DNA of 43,334 nt, taken from assembly GCA_010692635.1 (NCBI GenBank), contig JAAHGL010000047.1, forward strand, positions 1-43,334. The letters run 5' to 3'. Every line of letters starts with the position of its first letter. Within the stretch, counting starts at the first letter, position 1. The notes under the pieces were generated by a model that was not told where the DNA came from, did no database searches, and was given only the letters and a program-made list of their open reading frames with translations. Shown here piece by piece: positions 558 through 39,533 of the stretch. Made by a program: the position numbers and the translations under genes. The DNA comes from Symploca sp. SIO2C1 (lineage in GTDB: Bacteria > Cyanobacteriota > Cyanobacteriia > Cyanobacteriales > Coleofasciculaceae).

Positions 558-3500
558 CTACAGAGATTCTGGTAATGTGATCTCAAACAGATGAGCAAAA
601 CGACGCATCCTTTCCAGGGTGACGGGAACAGGCTCATCTAACTCACAGGCAGCAACCACTACTCTTGCTAGGTGAATTTCTCCTTTGAGTAAAGGGTATC
701 TTCCTGTTAATCTTTCTGATAGAGCAATCAGATTTTTGTTATCGGCAATAAATTCAGTTAAGGCTGTCAGATCCTCATCTATCTCTGGTATTTCTAAGCC
801 GAGAAATTCAAATCGCTGCAAACGCTGGATTACTTGCTCTATGGTTTCTTTTAGTTGTGCAGCAGCTGTAATTATATGTACAACAGCTATACGCTTGCTG
901 GGATAAACTGCTCGTCCATCTAGCTCTTCCGATAGTAAAATAGCATCTTCTGGAGTTATTGTGATTTTTTCTAATAAAGCTAGATCTACTTCTGGTACAA
1001 TCGGTTCTAGCTCCTTAAAATTCTGGAATCGGCTAAAAGTTTGAGCTAGAGTTTCATTTAACCTAGTAGCAGCAAAGACTAGAGCAGCAGCCAAGTTCCA
1101 ATCAGGTTTTGGATGACCAATGGTATCGATAAAAGGTTCATAAGCATCTAGTTCTTCAGAAGATATGTTCAAGTTTTCCCAGGACTCGATATCGATTTTT
1201 GGTAAATCTATGCCTAAAGGGACAAATCTCTCTACTTGCTTCCAGGTTGCAGAAATTGGTTCGTTCAGTTTTCTAGCAGCCTCCACGAGATGAGAAAGAG
1301 AGAGTCTATTATGTTTGCGAGAAGGATAAGGGTATTTTCCATCTAATCTTGAAGAGAAAATAACTACATCTTCTGGAGTTGCCATCAAGTCAACTAAAGA
1401 TTGTGGTTCTACCTCTGGTATTTCTAAACCCAGGAAGGCAAACTTCTGATATCTGGCAAGAGTTTGAGCAATAGGTTCATTAATTCTTGCTGAAGCTAAA
1501 ACAAGTTGACCAATAGGTATATACTTATCATTCCAAGGATCTTTATCTTTTCTGTTTATTATTGTGGAAAAAGCAATTACATCTTTCTCTGTAATCACAA
1601 GCTCATCCGGGATATTTTGGTCAATTGATGCAAGTTCTAGTCCTAAAGCTGCAAATCGTTGTAGTCGCTGTAAAATTTCCCTAATAGGCTGGTTTAAATA
1701 CCAAGCAGCAAAAATTATTTGGGCAGGAGGAATGTTAACATCAAAATTTATATAAGATAAATATCTGCTTACATGTCCTATATTGCTATTAAAAATAGCA
1801 GCATCAATAGGATCTAATACTGGACAATATTCAGATCGCATTGATGGTGGTATGCTCTCTAAACAGGCATTTGATAGTCTTACTAACCCATAACGCTTCC
1901 ACAAAAGTATACGATAAGGGATAATCCACCATGGCATACAGCTTATAATATCTCTGTATGAGAAGTTTCCTTTTAATAAATTACTATCCATTTCAAAACA
2001 GCCAACCTGAAGGATAGAAATCTCTAAATTATTGAAGTTTCTTGTTCCTAGTCTGAGCTGTGGTCGTTTTTGCAGGATAGAGTGAACTATATGACAACCT
2101 ACATTAGGGTATTCTTCTGAAAATTCCCACAACCAAGAGAGAGATAAAAATTCCCACTCCTGTAAAACTTCAGCACCTTGAATCAACAAGTCTTGAACAT
2201 ATTTTTTGTCATATTCCACAATCTTCTTGCGGTCTACAGTTAACCTAGGGTAGTAATCTTGATGTAGATTGACTACCACTCCAGATTGTCTTTCTTCAGT
2301 ACGTAAACCATCCGAGAGAATACATCCACGATATTCATGGGCTACCCACCAAAGATTATCCCCTGCACGGAGACAGTGATGCTGAGGAAGATAAGGATGC
2401 TTTAACTGATTTACTTCCCAAATTTCCCTTCTTGCTCCTTGTCGCACTTCTGTTGGAAATTCTGCAATCCACAACAGTTGTCGCAGGATTTCAATACAAG
2501 AAATGCGCTGACCCTCATGATGGGTGCGGTTGAGATAGAGACGTACTCTAGTTCCTGAATCGGAGCCGATACCTAAAGGCTGCACTCGAAATAAACCACT
2601 ACTGCCAGGAATCCGCACCAGTAGTTTCTCCCCTGGCTTACCCTGATGATCGAGGCGACAAGTTTCTACCTCAATTTCGTCTGCTAGCATAAAATAACTG
2701 AGCACCCCTACACCAAACTGACTATTGGGATAGAGTTTGATGGGAGGGTCACATTTAAGCCATGCCGCTTGTTCTTCAATAAATTCTGGTAAATCAGCAA
2801 AACGACGTCCCGCACTAGCAAAGCATTTGGATAAATGCTCCATATCCATGCCAATGCCATTGTCTTGACATTCAATATATTCTCGCCCATTCTCGTCTTT
2901 CTCCTGGCGAAAGATAATTTGCCCCTGCCATGCTGCTGAATCCTGATAACGAAATCTTGGTTGGGACTCCCATTCTCTCCGTGTCTCCCCATCCACCCGC
3001 GTGAGATACTCAAGCCTTGCGGCTCGATAACGACAGGCATCTAAAGCATTTTGATAGAGCTCTCGAATAGCTAATCCCGGATCCCCATAGAGTTGCTCTC
3101 CCATGAGCAATTCCCGAATCTCATCATGAGCGAGCTGGAAATTGATGTGGGGTTTTTGATAAACAGGGCCACTGTTATCCCTAGCTGCGATAATACCATC
3201 GGACATCAAATGTTTAGGAAAACCAGCTAAGGCTTCCATTTCTCCTCGTCGCTCGCCAATTCGTCTTAAAATTTGACCAAGGAATTCATCGGCTTGTTGC
3301 AGATGCTCTTTTAAAGCCACATCAATGGCAGGGTGATGACAAGTGGCTGTCAAATTTCGCCCCACACCAACAGGATTCCAACGAGTCTGAGTAGAATTAA
3401 CGAGGCGATGCAGATCCTGTAAATCCAAAGGATCAGCCATACCTATATGATCGACTAAAACTGTAGAAAGATGGCGAGTATCGATCGCTAATAACCATGC

Positions 3501-5060
3501 CATTTTCAGCAAGTAAGCCAGCATCTTCTCTCTAATCGGTTGTTCTTCTCGATATGATCCGACAATGAGACGAGACTGGAGTGCATTAGGACGATCCTCT
3601 CGATCGATGCGCTCAGGATCAACTAAAGTACAACGAGCCAATTCTAGCGATCGCTTCCAGTTTAGAGCATCTCGAACCAACCGGGTGCTACATTTACCGA
3701 ACTTTTGCAGCGCCTTGACAAAATCATCCGCAAGATAACCACCTTCTGATTCAGGAATCCATACTTCTAAACTCTTGCGCAAACAGCGATGCACTAGCCA
3801 AGACATGACAGCATCTTTTTCCGCTATTTGTCCCTGCTCTTCTAAACGCTTAGCTTTGCGAAAAAATCGAGGTTCACTTTGATGGAGTTTTTGCAGTGAG
3901 TCGCGAAAACTCCCGGTAGTATCCGTAGCTTCGCAAGCTAAAGGATTAGTTTTAGCTGCTTGCACCAGAGCACTTGCCAAAACTGCTTCTCGCACAAAAG
4001 GGACTGCGATAACCAAGGCAACTTCTGCTGCGGACAATTGCACCGGGGGATTAGAGCGCAGCACCAACAACTCTAAAGACTCCAGTACCCGAATTGGTAA
4101 GTTCTCATCCCGCCAAGGATCATTAGGCATTGCCTGGATTGAAGCTTGCCATTGCTGCCAACAAGCAGTCAGAATTCTGATAAATTGCTGTTTGAGACGA
4201 GAACTAGTGGAGTTGGAGTTTTCCTCTGTTTCCTCATCCTGCCAGAGGGATGATTCTAGCGCAGCCTCAGCCCAAGAATAGCTGTTTTCTCCTCTTAATG
4301 CCTTTGCCGTTAAACTCTCACAAATAACTTGAGATAGGGGAGTAGTATCAACTAAACTCTCAAAACAGTAATGAATTTGCTGTGCTTGCTTCCCATGTTC
4401 AGTAACTAGAGCATCTAACCTACTCTTAGTTGCTTCTAGCACTTCTCCCAGAGTACAAGCCGGATGTTGGGGATCTAGAACTTCTGCCAAAGCTTTAGAA
4501 AACAGACTGAACCCAGCTTCACCTCTGACATATTGACTCACTTGACCTGAGCCACAAGCAAACACTACTACAAAATTGCGTTTAGATGCCTTATTCCGCT
4601 CACCCCTACTCCAGGAAGCCAAATAGGTTTGCTTAACTCCGAGCTTCACTCCTTCTCGGCAGGCATCAATGACAAAAATAATCGTTTTGGCGTCTGCCTG
4701 ATCAATAATATTACTCAGGTCAGTTGAGACCAGATATTCTTCAATAGATTCTGGATCATCTAAAAAAGCGTCGGCAGGAACCAGATAATCTCTGCCATTA
4801 TAGTGCAGCCCATGACCAGAGAAATAAAGCAGTAGGATTTCGATTCCCTTAGCCTCTCGACATTCTCGTCTGAGAGAGTATCTGATTTTATTGCGAGTCA
4901 GTTGAGAGGCATTATCCGTTCCTAGGGAACTAACACGGTAGCCAGATTGTTCTAGAGAAAAATTTAGTGCTTCTAGATCTTGACAGACAACAGGCAGATT
5001 TTTAATTGCATCGCTTTCATACTCAGGAACTCCGATTAGTAATGCTCGACGCTTTTTCAT
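558..5060 (-). CDS. Caspase-like protease fused to GHKL/Hsp90-type ATPase with C-terminal repeats
   Basis: This 1500-residue protein is built in four parts. Residues 1-250 form a C14 caspase-like domain with the dyad His83 (SGHG) and Cys134 (IDACREG). Residues about 250-640 are a helical region of unknown fold, rich in Leu and Arg. Residues about 640-850 form a GHKL (Hsp90-type) ATPase: Glu667xxxAsn671 in the N box, Asp733-Asn-Gly-Ile-Gly737, and a Phe782-Gly-Val-Gly lid motif. The catalytic Glu and nucleotide-binding Asp are present, so it looks active. From about 1105 to the end there are five and a half copies of a repeat of about 72 residues (hydrophobic, AA.LNEP, then R...F..LGLE.PE, then ED). 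Similar caspase-Hsp90 fusions with winged-helix-like repeats are known from bacterial conflict systems; the repeat assignment is inferred. The gene starts 3 nt after the small partner gene, so the two are probably co-translated. A role as an ATP-gated suicide or defence protease is inference. Confidence 0.88.
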   Translation of the reverse strand: MKKRRALLIGVPEYESDAIKNLPVVCQDLEALNFSLEQSGYRVSSLGTDNASQLTRNKIRYSLRRECREAKGIEILLLYFSGHGLHYNGRDYLVPADAFLDDPESIEEYLVSTDLSNIIDQADAKTIIFVIDACREGVKLGVKQTYLASWSRGERNKASKRNFVVVFACGSGQVSQYVRGEAGFSLFSKALAEVLDPQHPACTLGEVLEATKSRLDALVTEHGKQAQQIHYCFESLVDTTPLSQVICESLTAKALRGENSYSWAEAALESSLWQDEETEENSNSTSSRLKQQFIRILTACWQQWQASIQAMPNDPWRDENLPIRVLESLELLVLRSNPPVQLSAAEVALVIAVPFVREAVLASALVQAAKTNPLACEATDTTGSFRDSLQKLHQSEPRFFRKAKRLEEQGQIAEKDAVMSWLVHRCLRKSLEVWIPESEGGYLADDFVKALQKFGKCSTRLVRDALNWKRSLELARCTLVDPERIDREDRPNALQSRLIVGSYREEQPIREKMLAYLLKMAWLLAIDTRHLSTVLVDHIGMADPLDLQDLHRLVNSTQTRWNPVGVGRNLTATCHHPAIDVALKEHLQQADEFLGQILRRIGERRGEMEALAGFPKHLMSDGIIAARDNSGPVYQKPHINFQLAHDEIRELLMGEQLYGDPGLAIRELYQNALDACRYRAARLEYLTRVDGETRREWESQPRFRYQDSAAWQGQIIFRQEKDENGREYIECQDNGIGMDMEHLSKCFASAGRRFADLPEFIEEQAAWLKCDPPIKLYPNSQFGVGVLSYFMLADEIEVETCRLDHQGKPGEKLLVRIPGSSGLFRVQPLGIGSDSGTRVRLYLNRTHHEGQRISCIEILRQLLWIAEFPTEVRQGARREIWEVNQLKHPYLPQHHCLRAGDNLWWVAHEYRGCILSDGLRTEERQSGVVVNLHQDYYPRLTVDRKKIVEYDKKYVQDLLIQGAEVLQEWEFLSLSWLWEFSEEYPNVGCHIVHSILQKRPQLRLGTRNFNNLEISILQVGCFEMDSNLLKGNFSYRDIISCMPWWIIPYRILLWKRYGLVRLSNACLESIPPSMRSEYCPVLDPIDAAIFNSNIGHVSRYLSYINFDVNIPPAQIIFAAWYLNQPIREILQRLQRFAALGLELASIDQNIPDELVITEKDVIAFSTIINRKDKDPWNDKYIPIGQLVLASARINEPIAQTLARYQKFAFLGLEIPEVEPQSLVDLMATPEDVVIFSSRLDGKYPYPSRKHNRLSLSHLVEAARKLNEPISATWKQVERFVPLGIDLPKIDIESWENLNISSEELDAYEPFIDTIGHPKPDWNLAAALVFAATRLNETLAQTFSRFQNFKELEPIVPEVDLALLEKITITPEDAILLSEELDGRAVYPSKRIAVVHIITAAAQLKETIEQVIQRLQRFEFLGLEIPEIDEDLTALTEFIADNKNLIALSERLTGRYPLLKGEIHLARVVVAACELDEPVPVTLERMRRFAHLFEITLPESL

Positions 5061-5063
5061 CCG

Positions 5064-5360
5064 TTATTCGGCAAATGTGAGGGTAATGGCTCCTTTCCCA
5101 CCCATTTTAGCCGTGCCGATTAACTCAACACCACCTTCAGCGGTAACCTCAACCTGAATGGTAACTTCCTTTAACTTGAAGTCCCCAACCCGTTTGACTT
5201 CACTGAGGGTTTCGGCAACACCCTGACAAACCTTGCTCAGATTCTCCTTCAGTTGCTGAGTGGGAATTTCCCGAAAGGCAATATCTCCATCCGGTGAAAA
5301 GATACCTTTCACATCCTCATCTTCCTGAGGAAGACTCACCAAAATCGGCATATATTCCAT
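5064..5360 (-). CDS. Trypco-like small partner of the caspase
   Basis: This 98-residue protein has a helical middle and a beta-rich C-terminus, residues 62-96, ending in IGTAKMGGKGAITLTF. That Gly-rich ending followed by ITL.F is typical of the trypsin-co-occurring (Trypco1, CU044_2847-like) family, which is found beside peptidase and STAND effectors; the assignment comes from pattern memory. The gene lies immediately 5' of the caspase-GHKL gene with a 3-nt gap, and a GGAG ribosome site sits 7 nt before its ATG. The C-terminal core matches the small gene at 38758-39120. It probably regulates or recruits the protease. No catalytic residues are visible. Confidence 0.75.
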   Translation of the reverse strand: MEYMPILVSLPQEDEDVKGIFSPDGDIAFREIPTQQLKENLSKVCQGVAETLSEVKRVGDFKLKEVTIQVEVTAEGGVELIGTAKMGGKGAITLTFAE

Positions 5361-36452: not shown

Positions 36453-36569
36453 CCTATATGCTCCGGAGTGACAATTTAACAATCTTCAATTTTCAGTTTA
36501 ACAACTTAACATAGCGATATATTGTCTATAATAAATTTGCCGATTGTGCTCGTTGCTGGGGAGATGACC

Positions 36570-36830
36570 ATGAATACTTTAGTAAAAACTCAGAAAATAT
36601 ACGAGGAATTTATTGATTTTATAGCTCAAGGTACTAGCCCAGAAAGTGTGACTAAGTTTCAATTCTCTGAAGCAACAAAAGAACAGATAGAAGATTTAGT
36701 GGAACGTGCCAAAATAGCAGATTTATCCTCCGCTGAAAAAAACGAACTAGAACAGTTTTTAGTAGTAGAACATCTGATTAGATTGGCCAAAGCTAAAGCT
36801 CATCAATACCTTAAATCTGTTTCTCAGTAG
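36570..36830 (+). CDS. Small helical protein paired with HNH nuclease
   Basis: An 86-residue, charged, mostly helical protein (KIYEEFIDFIAQGTSPE, then TKEQIEDLVERAKIADLSSAEKNELEQF). I recognise it only as a common companion of small cyanobacterial HNH proteins, with no known function. The ATG at 36570 follows GGGGAG by 6-7 nt; the open frame extends upstream to 36522. The HNH gene begins 15 nt after its stop. It could be an inhibitor or adaptor. Confidence 0.8.
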   Translation: MNTLVKTQKIYEEFIDFIAQGTSPESVTKFQFSEATKEQIEDLVERAKIADLSSAEKNELEQFLVVEHLIRLAKAKAHQYLKSVSQ

Positions 36831-36845
36831 AGAGAGAAATTAATT

Positions 36846-37283
36846 ATGCCTCGACTCTACATTACTAAAGAACTGAAACGATTAGTCAGTAAACGGGCTG
36901 AAGGTTTGTGTGAATATTGTCTGATTTCTGAAGAAGATAGCGGTGGGTGTCAATTTGACCACATTATCAGTGTCAAGCATGGGGGTGAAACGACTGCGGA
37001 CAATTTAGCCTATGCTTGTTTATATTGTAACCTAAATAAAGGGACAGATTTAGGGTCAATTATTTGGCGCACAGGTGAGCTGGTGAGATTTTTTAATCCT
37101 AGACTAGACTCATGGTATGAGCATTTTCGTCTTGACGGTGCGATGATAAATTCTTTAACAGATATTGGGGAAGTCACAGCCAGAATTTTACAGTTTAATA
37201 GTAGCGATCGCCTCTTAGAAAGACAATTGTTGATTGAGGTAAATAGATACCCTTCACCTGATGCATTAAAACGAATCAAATGA
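36846..37283 (+). CDS. HNH endonuclease
   Basis: A 145-residue HNH protein. Cys22-x2-Cys25 and Cys58-x2-Cys61 form the zinc knuckle pair around the catalytic FDHIISVKHGG (Asp38-His39), with Asn53 and the following N-x2-K. Such small McrA-like nucleases cut DNA non-specifically or in mobile and defence settings. The C-terminal half (residues 75-145) is helical and may bind DNA or the partner. It lies beside the caspase module but on the opposite strand, so a functional link is not shown. Confidence 0.88.
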   Translation: MPRLYITKELKRLVSKRAEGLCEYCLISEEDSGGCQFDHIISVKHGGETTADNLAYACLYCNLNKGTDLGSIIWRTGELVRFFNPRLDSWYEHFRLDGAMINSLTDIGEVTARILQFNSSDRLLERQLLIEVNRYPSPDALKRIK

Positions 37284-37341
37284 GTGATTGCATGGGATGC
37301 TCCCGGGCACAATGAATATTTTTAACCATTGAACTAATCAA

Positions 37342-38757
37342 TTACCCATTTTTGCCCACTAATACAGATAATACCATTTCAAATAATTCGCTTGGCCAAT
37401 TTGTACAACCAATTGCACCATGACGAAGTGACTCAGCAATGTGTTTAGGATGTCTTGAACTAGCATAGATGATAAATGGGGTTTCATCTCGACAAGAGCG
37501 AAGCTGATCAAGTAAGGTGTAACCTGCTCGTGGATCAGGTGGGCGTCCCATGTCGGAAATAATCAAATCAAAATCTTGTCTGTTGAGTTTATAAAATGCC
37601 TCCTCAGTGGATTGAGCCAAGACAAAATTGATACCTAAGGCTTCAAGTGATTGTCGTTCATAGATGTTGTTATTAGGACGATCATCTACCCAAAGTACTG
37701 TTGATTTTCTCAAAGGTTTTATGGTGCGAGAATTAACATATTCAGCAACAGCATCTTTGTCAAACTTTACATCTTTTTGAGCCTTTTGATCAGCAACAGC
37801 ATGTTTGTCAGACTTTACATCTTTTTGAGCCTTTTCATGAGTTATTTCCGACAGTCCTTTGAGCCAAACCCGCTTGAGTGCCTTTAACGCTTTGGGGTCA
37901 GCAGGAGATAACCCTAAGATTCGTGTCCATAACTGCTCTGCTAACTCCAAATCACCCTCCAATTCAGCCTCAAGAGCATCTTCTCTAAGGATGGCAATAT
38001 CGATTAGAGTTGCCTGTTGAGGTAATAAAATCAGATGGTACTTGGAGGCAGGTTCTACGATCGCATAGGGAGTCTGGACTGGTTTATTGTAGTAGTTATT
38101 GATTTCAGGTACCCGATAGCGCAAACGTTGATACAACCTTTCAACTGTGGCACAGTTGCTTTCCCCTTGAATCCGCAGCGACTCTAACAATGCATAAGTA
38201 AAAGAACCTTGCCCAATCTCTTCAAGTTCATAGGCTTTTTCTCTGGGACTACAAGAAGAAATGGTAATTACACCCTGATGTTTCTGTAAGCCAATACCAA
38301 CACCAGCTTTATCTCCTTGATTGCGACAAGCATCAAGGAATAGCACCACATTATCAGCACCACAACGGCGCAAGCGTTCTGTTACATAACTAATAGAGAT
38401 AGCTGTGGCTTCTACAGCTTTATGATTGGCATCACAGGGCATCAAATAATCTCGCTCTTGATATCGAATCCCATGCCCACTAAAGAAAAACCAAAAGTTG
38501 TCACCAGCTTCTAGATAAGGTTTTTCAAAAAACTCTAACAGAAACGACAACAGATTGGCATAAGTAGGTTGTGTGGATTGAGGTGAGCCGTCAGGAGCAA
38601 TCTCATTGGGAGAATTATCCGAGAAATAGAAAACCCGCTCAAATCCAGCTTCATCCCTTAAGAAGTCACTTACTGCTTCAGCATCCGGCACAGCAAACTC
38701 TAACGAGCGCAATCTTTGATATTCGTTGATGCCAATAACAAATGCCCAGTTTGTCAT
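37342..38757 (-). CDS. Caspase-like protease fused to TPR-like segment and receiver domain
   Basis: This 471-residue protein has three parts. Residues 1-245 form a C14 caspase-like domain with His95 (FFSGHG) and Cys144 (LDACRNQ). Residues about 253-300 form a TPR-like helical pair (ALEAELEGDLELAEQLWTRI). Residues 308-340 form a linker holding two copies of a 16-residue unit. Residues 352-471 are a response-regulator receiver fold: acidic pocket Asp358-Asp359, phosphoacceptor position Asp402 (IISDMGR), Ser433/434, but no Lys at the usual C-terminal position (TNWPSE). The gene starts directly at the stop of the small partner gene. A signal-controlled protease is likely; phosphorylation or ligand control through the receiver is inference. 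No histidine kinase is nearby. Confidence 0.9.
   Translation of the reverse strand: MTNWAFVIGINEYQRLRSLEFAVPDAEAVSDFLRDEAGFERVFYFSDNSPNEIAPDGSPQSTQPTYANLLSFLLEFFEKPYLEAGDNFWFFFSGHGIRYQERDYLMPCDANHKAVEATAISISYVTERLRRCGADNVVLFLDACRNQGDKAGVGIGLQKHQGVITISSCSPREKAYELEEIGQGSFTYALLESLRIQGESNCATVERLYQRLRYRVPEINNYYNKPVQTPYAIVEPASKYHLILLPQQATLIDIAILREDALEAELEGDLELAEQLWTRILGLSPADPKALKALKRVWLKGLSEITHEKAQKDVKSDKHAVADQKAQKDVKFDKDAVAEYVNSRTIKPLRKSTVLWVDDRPNNNIYERQSLEALGINFVLAQSTEEAFYKLNRQDFDLIISDMGRPPDPRAGYTLLDQLRSCRDETPFIIYASSRHPKHIAESLRHGAIGCTNWPSELFEMVLSVLVGKNG
37742..37837 (-). repeat. Two tandem 48-bp units inside the caspase-receiver gene
   Basis: Units 37742-37789 and 37790-37837 differ at only a few positions and encode the 16-residue unit KAQKDVK.DK.AVA.. 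twice. The unit is a whole number of codons, so the frame is kept; it lengthens the linker between the TPR-like and receiver parts. Confidence 0.85.
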
Positions 38758-39120
38758 CTAAGAACTAGCCCGTTTAAACTTAAGTGTAATACCCCCCTTC
38801 GTTCCCACTTTGCCACCAGTTCCCAAAAACTTCACCTCTCCTTGACCATTGACTTCTACTGATAGCTCAATTTCATCAAGCCTGAGTCCAGAATCAGGGG
38901 GAACTTGCTTCTGAGCGCAGCTCAACAACCCACTGACGACTTGCAGAAACTTTGACAGCTCAGCTTCAACTTTCTGAGCACTGACTTTATTGGCTTTAGT
39001 TACAGGAGTTATGGCAGAAGGTTTACGCCAAGAACCGCCACTTTTGGAGCCGTTATCCTCTTCTGCTTGAGGAGTTTCAGTGGTAATAATCCAAATTGTT
39101 TCGTTGTCTGCTTCTAACAT
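38758..39120 (-). CDS. Pepco/Trypco-like small partner of the second caspase
   Basis: The 120-residue protein has a variable Thr/Glu-rich N-terminus (1-45), a helical middle (48-70) and a beta-rich C-terminal core (80-116) ending GTGGKVGTKGGITLKFKR. This ending matches the peptidase-co-occurring (Pepco) or Trypco families by memory. It also aligns by eye with the core of the gene at 5064-5360: LDEIELSVEV against LKEVTIQVEV, and GGITLKF against GAITLTF. The stop abuts the caspase ATG (TAG-ATG). Likely the regulatory or recruiting subunit; no enzymatic motif is seen. Confidence 0.78.
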   Translation of the reverse strand: MLEADNETIWIITTETPQAEEDNGSKSGGSWRKPSAITPVTKANKVSAQKVEAELSKFLQVVSGLLSCAQKQVPPDSGLRLDEIELSVEVNGQGEVKFLGTGGKVGTKGGITLKFKRASS

Positions 39121-39203: not shown

Positions 39204-39533
39204 ATGAAGAAATTACTATTTGTTTGCAGCCAGAACCGATTGCGTAGCCCTACCGCTGAAACAGTATTCTCCAACTATGAGGGACTAGAGGTAGACTCCG
39301 CTGGACTGAACTCAGAAGCTGAGATAACTTTATGCAGTGAGGCAATTGAGTGGGCTGACATTATTTTTGTCATGGAAAAGTACCACCGAAACAAACTTTC
39401 CAAGAAGTTTAGACCTTGGTTGAAAAACAAGCGAGTAGTTTGTCTGGATATTCCCGATAATTATGAATATATGGAGCCAGCTTTAGTAGAGTTACTAAAG
39501 AAAAAAGTCCTGCCACTTCTAGGAACCTTTTAA
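39204..39533 (+). CDS. Low-molecular-weight protein tyrosine phosphatase-like protein
   Basis: A 109-residue, single-domain protein. The P-loop is Cys8-Ser-Gln-Asn-Arg-Leu-Arg14-Ser (C-x5-R-S), followed by PTAETVFSN, and a late LDIPDNYEYM may carry the general acid. It is shorter than canonical LMW-PTPs (about 150 residues) and belongs to the predicted protein tyrosine phosphatase group (COG4551-like). Divergent from the caspase module, with which it shares an 83-nt upstream region. Substrate unknown. Confidence 0.85.
   Translation: MKKLLFVCSQNRLRSPTAETVFSNYEGLEVDSAGLNSEAEITLCSEAIEWADIIFVMEKYHRNKLSKKFRPWLKNKRVVCLDIPDNYEYMEPALVELLKKKVLPLLGTF

Follow-up and report, generated by a model that had tools for sequence, protein, structure and literature searches.

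Symploca sp. SIO2C1 encodes a protein in which a two-component-type receiver domain is tied directly to a death-type protease, a caspase, and the gene for this protein directly follows a Pepco gene on the minus strand of contig JAAHGL010000047.1 (gap 0 nt). With moderate confidence, we read the pair as a conflict or programmed-death protease switch in which a ligand or partner on the pseudo-receiver would turn the caspase on, with Pepco as its partner or brake. The observed basis of this proposal comprises the gene pair and its domains, the swapping of modules in one C-terminal slot, the loss of the conserved lysine and the near-universal loss of the switch residue in the receiver subfamily, the retention of Asp402 and the acidic pocket, and the lack of a nearby kinase. 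One protease chassis appears to accept different sensors. The modular caspase conflict protein is a known kind of system; within the reach of these searches, its receiver variant and the receiver subfamily as outlined here are new.

The window, the whole analysed stretch of 43,334 nucleotides, carries the Pepco gene at 38758..39120 (-) (120 amino acids; PF24393, 109.4 bits, cut-off 27) as the first of the pair and the caspase-receiver gene at 37342..38757 (-) (471 amino acids), the ATG of which stands right after the Pepco stop codon. The original prediction of a caspase-receiver fusion abutting a Pepco-like gene, with the stop codon of the partner touching the start codon of the caspase, is confirmed by these exact coordinates and by Pfam, all three domains scoring over their cut-offs. 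The caspase domain (38014..38757, (-); residues 1-248) is defined by Pfam, by the AlphaFold model and by fold matches. Peptidase_C14 covers residues 3-221 (E = 9.8e-24), and the catalytic dyad of His95 (codon 38473-38475, (-)) and Cys144 (codon 38326-38328, (-)) is intact; among 36 aligned caspase rows, Cys is invariant and His is present in at least 90%. This part of the model is confident, with block means of pLDDT between 80 and 97, but 63-66 at residues 141-160. A fold search, which in effect covered residues 1-248 only, placed metacaspase-4 (Z = 22.9, rmsd 2.4, 212 residues) and MALT1 (Z = 22.6, rmsd 2.4, 202 residues) among the closest solved folds.

The caspase is followed by TPR-like helical hairpins (37858..38013, (-); residues 249-300), with the alignment of most relatives ending near residue 297. 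The model predicts helices at 251-266, 270-283 and 288-317; of the TPR segment postulated earlier, the TPR-like helices over residues 251-317 stood, but Pfam matched no TPR in the protein at E ≤ 1. A Lys-rich linker (37702..37857, (-); residues 301-352) leads to the pseudo-receiver domain (37342..37701, (-); residues 353-471) and is lengthened by a 48-bp tandem duplication at 37742-37835 (2.0 copies, 95% match by TRF). The Pepco protein was modelled with a mean pLDDT of 74; the model has no PDB match at E ≤ 0.001, and a profile search gave two chance-level matches.

Two sets of homologues place this protein in a wider family. A pattern-based search of 84,980 collected genomes, biased to close kin, gave the first (80 of 98 relatives kept); 37 related genomes, the genome of SIO2C1 included, gave the second. 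In 62 of the 80 loci of the first set, a Pepco gene precedes the caspase at a distance of -58 to +96 nt, mostly 3-9 nt, these gaps being approximate as caspase starts were read from the alignment. The adjacency is not due to chance. Pepco was detected in the relatives by a profile grown from the window protein, not by Pfam. The 18 loci without Pepco just upstream count against the proposed switch, with L107 among them cut short by the start of its contig and L072 carrying Pepco ~960 nt upstream; at L038, L039 and L044 Pepco is found downstream of the caspase instead. In both sets, the homology of the caspase stops near residue 297 in most relatives. The nearest relative (L035; Symploca sp. SIO1C2) is 77% identical over residues 1-297, and over this part purifying selection is evident (dN/dS 0.17), whereas past residue 297 it continues with a hydrophobic segment and another domain, with no receiver; no Pepco was found beside its caspase.

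A survey of 81 tails, with 25 of 72 families listed and those of at least two members placed first, assigned 42 to FGE-sulfatase/lectin domains, 28 to GUN4, one to a WD40 propeller and one, that of the window protein, to Response_reg; other tails have hydrophobic stretches or domains without assignment. Excluded from the survey were duplicates or cut copies (L001, L002, L003 and L035), loci below 37% identity, tails shorter than 40 amino acids (L012, L080, L093, L103, L106 and L112) and, by choice, L010 (45 amino acids) and L070 (40 amino acids), and several of the 81 tails are shortened by contig ends or masked (for example L040, L065, L079 and L091). The window pair has an upstream Pepco on the same strand, a His/Cys caspase and a C-terminus that differs between close relatives. 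Pepco and the caspase are a cyanobacterial chassis, in which the C-terminus is a plug-in slot and the receiver one of many modules.

The slot most likely holds an input sensor, a reading drawn by analogy with the other tails. The clearest case is L180 on plasmid pOSC7112.01 of Oscillatoria nigro-viridis, where the gene order is Pepco (104 bits), a caspase-SAVED protein and a DncV-like nucleotidyltransferase carrying an AGS_C domain, an operon of CBASS-like type that includes Pepco (L180:2610-6189). It shares Pepco and the same caspase core with the window pair (53.7% identity to the window caspase over residues 3-297), but SAVED and a cyclase gene replace the receiver. In CBASS, SAVED reads the nucleotide made by the cyclase, and the tail of L180 should therefore be an input. 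GUN4 is described as binding tetrapyrroles (PMC7159879), and FGE/lectin domains have been linked to diversity-generating retroelements (PMC7517822; PMC8195603). From these three kinds of tail it can be argued that the receiver, too, would be an input, and the earlier suggestion that it serves as a ligand or protein sensor is probably right; in relatives its slot is occupied by domains of sensor type. The SAVED case is a single locus, and this weakens the argument. No CD-NTase or SAVED/CARF-type sensor was found among seven window proteins scanned, flanking genes included.

The opposite polarity, in which Pepco would be the sensor and the receiver a payload, an effector or signal set free when the caspase cuts its own linker, seems rather improbable. 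Deployment of effectors by auto-proteolysis has been proposed for the EACC1-caspase system (Kaur et al., 2020; PMC7159879), the linker is basic and duplicated, and arginine P1 specificity has been reported for a cyanobacterial orthocaspase (PMC8283722). The duplicated linker is, however, rich in Lys and not in Arg, the receiver has no evident effector activity, and the SAVED-cyclase locus and GUN4 fit an input role better.

The receiver is of an unusual kind. Its fold, predicted earlier for residues 350-471, rests on profile evidence because the receiver part of the AlphaFold model, for which the input included no receiver relative, has a mean pLDDT below 50. Response_reg matches residues 354-452 over its cut-off (E = 7.7e-10, 39.4 bits, cut-off 30.2), and a subfamily profile matched 140 distinct PDB sequences at E ≤ 0.001, nearly all of the best 60 of the 140 being receivers; the best match was RcsC (1.6e-12). 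The profile evidence agrees with the predicted receiver fold. The cREC family (PF20274) was rejected, as the window protein gave no match at E ≤ 1 and two relatives gave E values of 0.0046 and 0.012, below the cut-off.

The acidic residues Asp358 and Asp359 and the phosphoacceptor Asp402 (codon 37552-37554, (-)) are intact, while Trp454 (codon 37396-37398, (-)) stands at the conserved-Lys position, so that the retention of Asp402 and the absence of Lys were read correctly in the original prediction; the loss of the switch Thr/Ser to Ala432 (codon 37462-37464, (-)) had been missed. Residues were counted in 30 distinct domains, including that of the window, each covering at least 110 profile positions; shorter pieces (for example L163, L168, L169, L176 and L129), duplicates and L184 (the same as L175) were left aside. 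The phosphoacceptor Asp is kept in 30/30, the second acidic Asp in 29/30 and the first acidic position as Asp/Glu in 28/30. Lys occurs at its conserved position in none of the 30 domains (N 12, Q 8, D 6, R 2, H 1, W 1). At the switch position stands A in 15, D in 7, G in 5, S in 2, V in 1 and Thr in none; an ordinary receiver aligned with the same domains has T and K at these two positions. The loss of Lys is therefore a trait of the subfamily and no private defect of the window receiver, although the Trp is private. The window domain matches PF00072 and lacks key active-site residues, which, by the definition given in PMC12632262, makes it a pseudo-receiver. Some pseudo-receivers are described there as working by ligand binding, and the second acidic residue (DD2) is stated to be non-acidic in about 80% of them.

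Kinases were sought with a profile built from 13 of the kinases of the same genome, which recovered an Azospirillum control kinase. It detected no histidine kinase in the window and none adjacent to the receiver in 27 subfamily neighbourhoods of 6 to 31 kb (L128 and L144 being the same Escherichia coli gene); two lie further off (L188 and L193). A Pfam scan of neighbours covered 47 chosen proteins and listed 25 of 66 families, and the statement on kinases rests on the kinase profile. No homologue was found that carries a normal Lys beside a dedicated histidine kinase. Of the features of a canonical receiver, the window domain has the acidic pair and the phosphoacceptor and lacks the Lys, the switch Thr/Ser and a nearby histidine kinase.

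Classical two-component control, with Asp402 phosphorylated by a histidine kinase from another locus and the caspase switched by the resulting conformational change, is unlikely. Asp402 and Asp358/359 are intact, 97 HisKA matches in the genome offer candidates for action in trans, and loss of or substitution at DD, T or K need not stop phosphotransfer or abolish phosphorylation, according to PMC12632262. Against this stand the absence of Lys (0/30), a switch Thr/Ser in only 2/30 subfamily members and the lack of a kinase in the window or adjoining the related receivers examined. In addition, the position three residues before the Lys, at which an aromatic side chain mediates Tyr-Thr coupling (PMC12632262), is Cys451, and in the alignment RcsC has a loop two residues shorter after its phosphoacceptor. 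Phosphorelay, one of the two suggestions of the original prediction, was therefore rejected as the main reading on the losses of Lys and the switch Thr/Ser (Ser 2/30, Thr 0/30) and the absence of a nearby kinase. Asp402 and the acidic pair are nonetheless kept, unlike in most pseudo-receivers, so that some phosphorylation may still occur, a point against the ligand- or partner-driven switch that we favour.

The receiver belongs to a subfamily that searches with residues 345-471 detected in 3 of 292 genomes of the phylum (E ≤ 1e-12) and, in overlapping sets, in 12 of 388 genomes of the order and 20 of 388 of the class (E ≤ 1e-15), the genome of SIO2C1 being included each time. The window protein is the only member with a caspase in these searches. 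Most others are orphan frames of about 207-283 amino acids, some of them broken or short (for example L163, L169, L176 and L134), and a hydrophobic helix (average hydropathy at least 1.8) precedes the receiver in 28 of the 29 non-fusion members with enough N-terminal sequence to be judged, L165 being the exception. This membrane-anchored orphan family appears to work without a dedicated histidine kinase. Other architectures occur: at L184 an FGE domain is joined to the receiver, with TIR, VMAP-C and AAA (MoxR-like) genes in the same locus, and on a Rhizobium phaseoli plasmid it lies inside a protein of 1509 amino acids with neighbours annotated as MoxR and trypsin-like. A membrane-anchored receiver of E. 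coli (WP_000433086.1), 51% identical to the window receiver, is present at ≥99% identity in 26 of 5426 complete E. coli genomes, where it is annotated only as 'response regulator'; it lies between yfgI and guaA, near a gene for an AAA-family ATPase and an incomplete integrase-core fragment (L144:13027-15771). No relative was found in viral contigs, and two Listeria phage records match the receiver at 32% identity. In four loci of one genus (L147, L148, L199 and L200) membrane-anchored receivers adjoin a magnesium-chelatase-type gene, called as CobN-Mg_chel by Pfam in L200 and by equal length and place in the other three. Membrane-anchored receivers at L185 and L187 lie near an Oxidored_nitro (chlB-like) gene, assigned by Pfam in L187 and by a similar start in L185. 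GUN4 tails are common on the caspases, while some receivers lie beside or near these magnesium-chelatase-type or chlB-like genes.

The linker bears on the origin of the fusion. Its last ~22 residues match the linker of the membrane-anchored receiver at L134 in 10 of 22 positions, with none of 20,000 shuffles scoring as well; the similarity is equally strong for L126 (0/20,000), weaker for L127 (6/20,000), weak for the more distant L135 (307/20,000) and absent for L136 (2685/20,000). The likeness to L134, L126 and L127 suggests that some of the linker was probably carried over in the fusion event. The receiver itself is up to 79% identical to its relatives, and in a tree with a long outgroup branch it groups with L127 (support 87/51), a placement that is not firm. 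Given the identity, the shared linker and the rarity of the fusion, the membrane-anchored family is the probable source of the receiver and of part of the linker. No caspase-receiver fusion was found elsewhere in the overlapping searches of 292, 388 and 388 genomes, in which at most 11-14 receiver candidates per genome were scored and a fusion could be missed; that it is known from a single draft genome tells against the proposed switch.

The same kinship could mean that the receiver is a docking adaptor, pairing with a receiver of its own subfamily, for example a membrane-anchored one, and so bringing the caspase to the membrane. Its closest relatives are membrane-anchored and the linker matches theirs, and receivers commonly dimerise. 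We nevertheless think this quite unlikely, since the only receiver match in its own genome at E ≤ 1e-12, among the 14 of 63 candidates scored, is the protein itself; the assembly is about 96% complete, so that a partner could be missed.

A dispersed repeat of ~60 bp at 37305-37370, with matches at many sites in the same genome and in two sister genomes, overlaps the last codons of the receiver, the stop codon and the following gap. The dN/dS values of the receiver against three relatives are 0.05, 0.21 and 0.31, the lowest having near-saturated dS. An assembly chimera or a decaying, functionless gene is very improbable: the single draft genome of 470 contigs, a Trp at the Lys position that no other member of the 30-domain set has and the repeat over the 3' end could point that way, but the gene is one open frame with a relative-like linker, purifying selection on both halves and an intact catalytic dyad and acidic pocket.

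Several described systems resemble the pair in part. The EACC1-caspase system (System 4 of Kaur et al., 2020; PMC7159879) likewise has a small 5' partner gene, a constant N-terminal caspase and a highly variable C-terminus, but its partner is the transmembrane EACC1, where the window pair has Pepco by Pfam, and it occurs mostly in actinobacteria, whereas the window-type pair was found mainly in cyanobacteria. An EACC1-type caspase was rejected on score (NF047832, 65.3 bits, cut-off 140); the window partner matched only Pepco in Pfam and nothing in NCBIfam. Cyanobacterial orthocaspases with FGE-sulfatase or GUN4 tails (PMC8283722; PMC7517822) have the same order of caspase and accessory domain, and close homologues with these tails share the caspase with the window protein up to residue ~297. 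Table 1 of a survey of 473 cyanobacterial orthocaspases (PMC8283722) holds 35 accessory Pfam domains, Response_reg being absent from it. The Canu caspase-nuclease defence (PMC12799240) combines a MALT1-like caspase with a partner protein in a small operon, and that caspase was purified in complex with its partner; the window pair differs in having no nuclease or Ig-like domain and in carrying a receiver. The receiver resembles the bacterial pseudo-receivers of Bourret et al. (2025; PMC12632262) in its PF00072 match and the loss of the conserved T and K; unlike most of them, nearly all of the 30 domains keep D and DD2, and that of the window is fused to a caspase. Receivers without kinases have been described in conflict systems (PMC8195603), as have cREC receivers outside kinase systems in conflict loci (PMC7824862). 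A word search of PMC3501461 returned no receiver or response regulator. In the openly available main texts we found neither a fusion of a caspase to a receiver nor a study of the Pepco domain; we also found no experiment on a Pepco-caspase pair, and this last point counts against the favoured reading.

The protease switch that we favour could operate as follows. A ligand or protein partner would bind the receiver, possibly through a phosphate or nucleotide that it bears and that the retained acidic/metal pocket would hold; the helical hairpins would then bring protomers together, and the caspase would become active, with Pepco as regulator or partner. Cleavage of cell proteins might then lead to growth stop or to death of the infected or stressed cell, as abortive defence or programmed death. 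With SAVED, GUN4, FGE/lectin and a pseudo-receiver arrayed on one caspase core, the question of what activates bacterial orthocaspases becomes directly testable. For the SAVED form the expected signal is a cyclic nucleotide of a known class, and this form could calibrate the inputs of the other tails.

A broader reading is considerably more speculative, though possible. The receiver subfamily, outlined by the motif LWVDD...ISDM...G(C/S)TNx(P/A)xELF and reaching E. coli, might be a general kinase-independent immune sensor whose retained metal/acid pocket binds a ligand derived from an invader or from stress, with Pepco-caspase as a plug-and-play executioner. The pseudo-receiver sensor would then exist in membrane-anchored form (in cyanobacteria and enterobacteria), in MoxR-conflict form and in a caspase-wired form, and the executioner could be fitted with lectin, tetrapyrrole, cyclic-nucleotide or pseudo-receiver sensors.

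The neighbouring window genes, their translations inspected by eye, are mostly housekeeping and form no defence island, a setting that counts against a conflict function. Beyond the Pepco gene, a reading frame of 109 amino acids at 39204-39533 resembles a low-molecular-weight phosphatase; it matches only the N-terminal part of PF01451 and looks shortened. On the other side, a small reading frame and an HNH endonuclease gene (36522-37283) are convergent with the caspase-receiver gene, and at L132 a membrane-anchored receiver adjoins a small-frame and HNH pair plus an Mrr-type restriction gene. The window holds a further caspase protein at 558-5060, 1500 amino acids long with caspase, iHD-CE, HSP90-like and wHTH parts, and a Pepco reading frame of its own (about 5064-5360) lies ~3 nt upstream of it.
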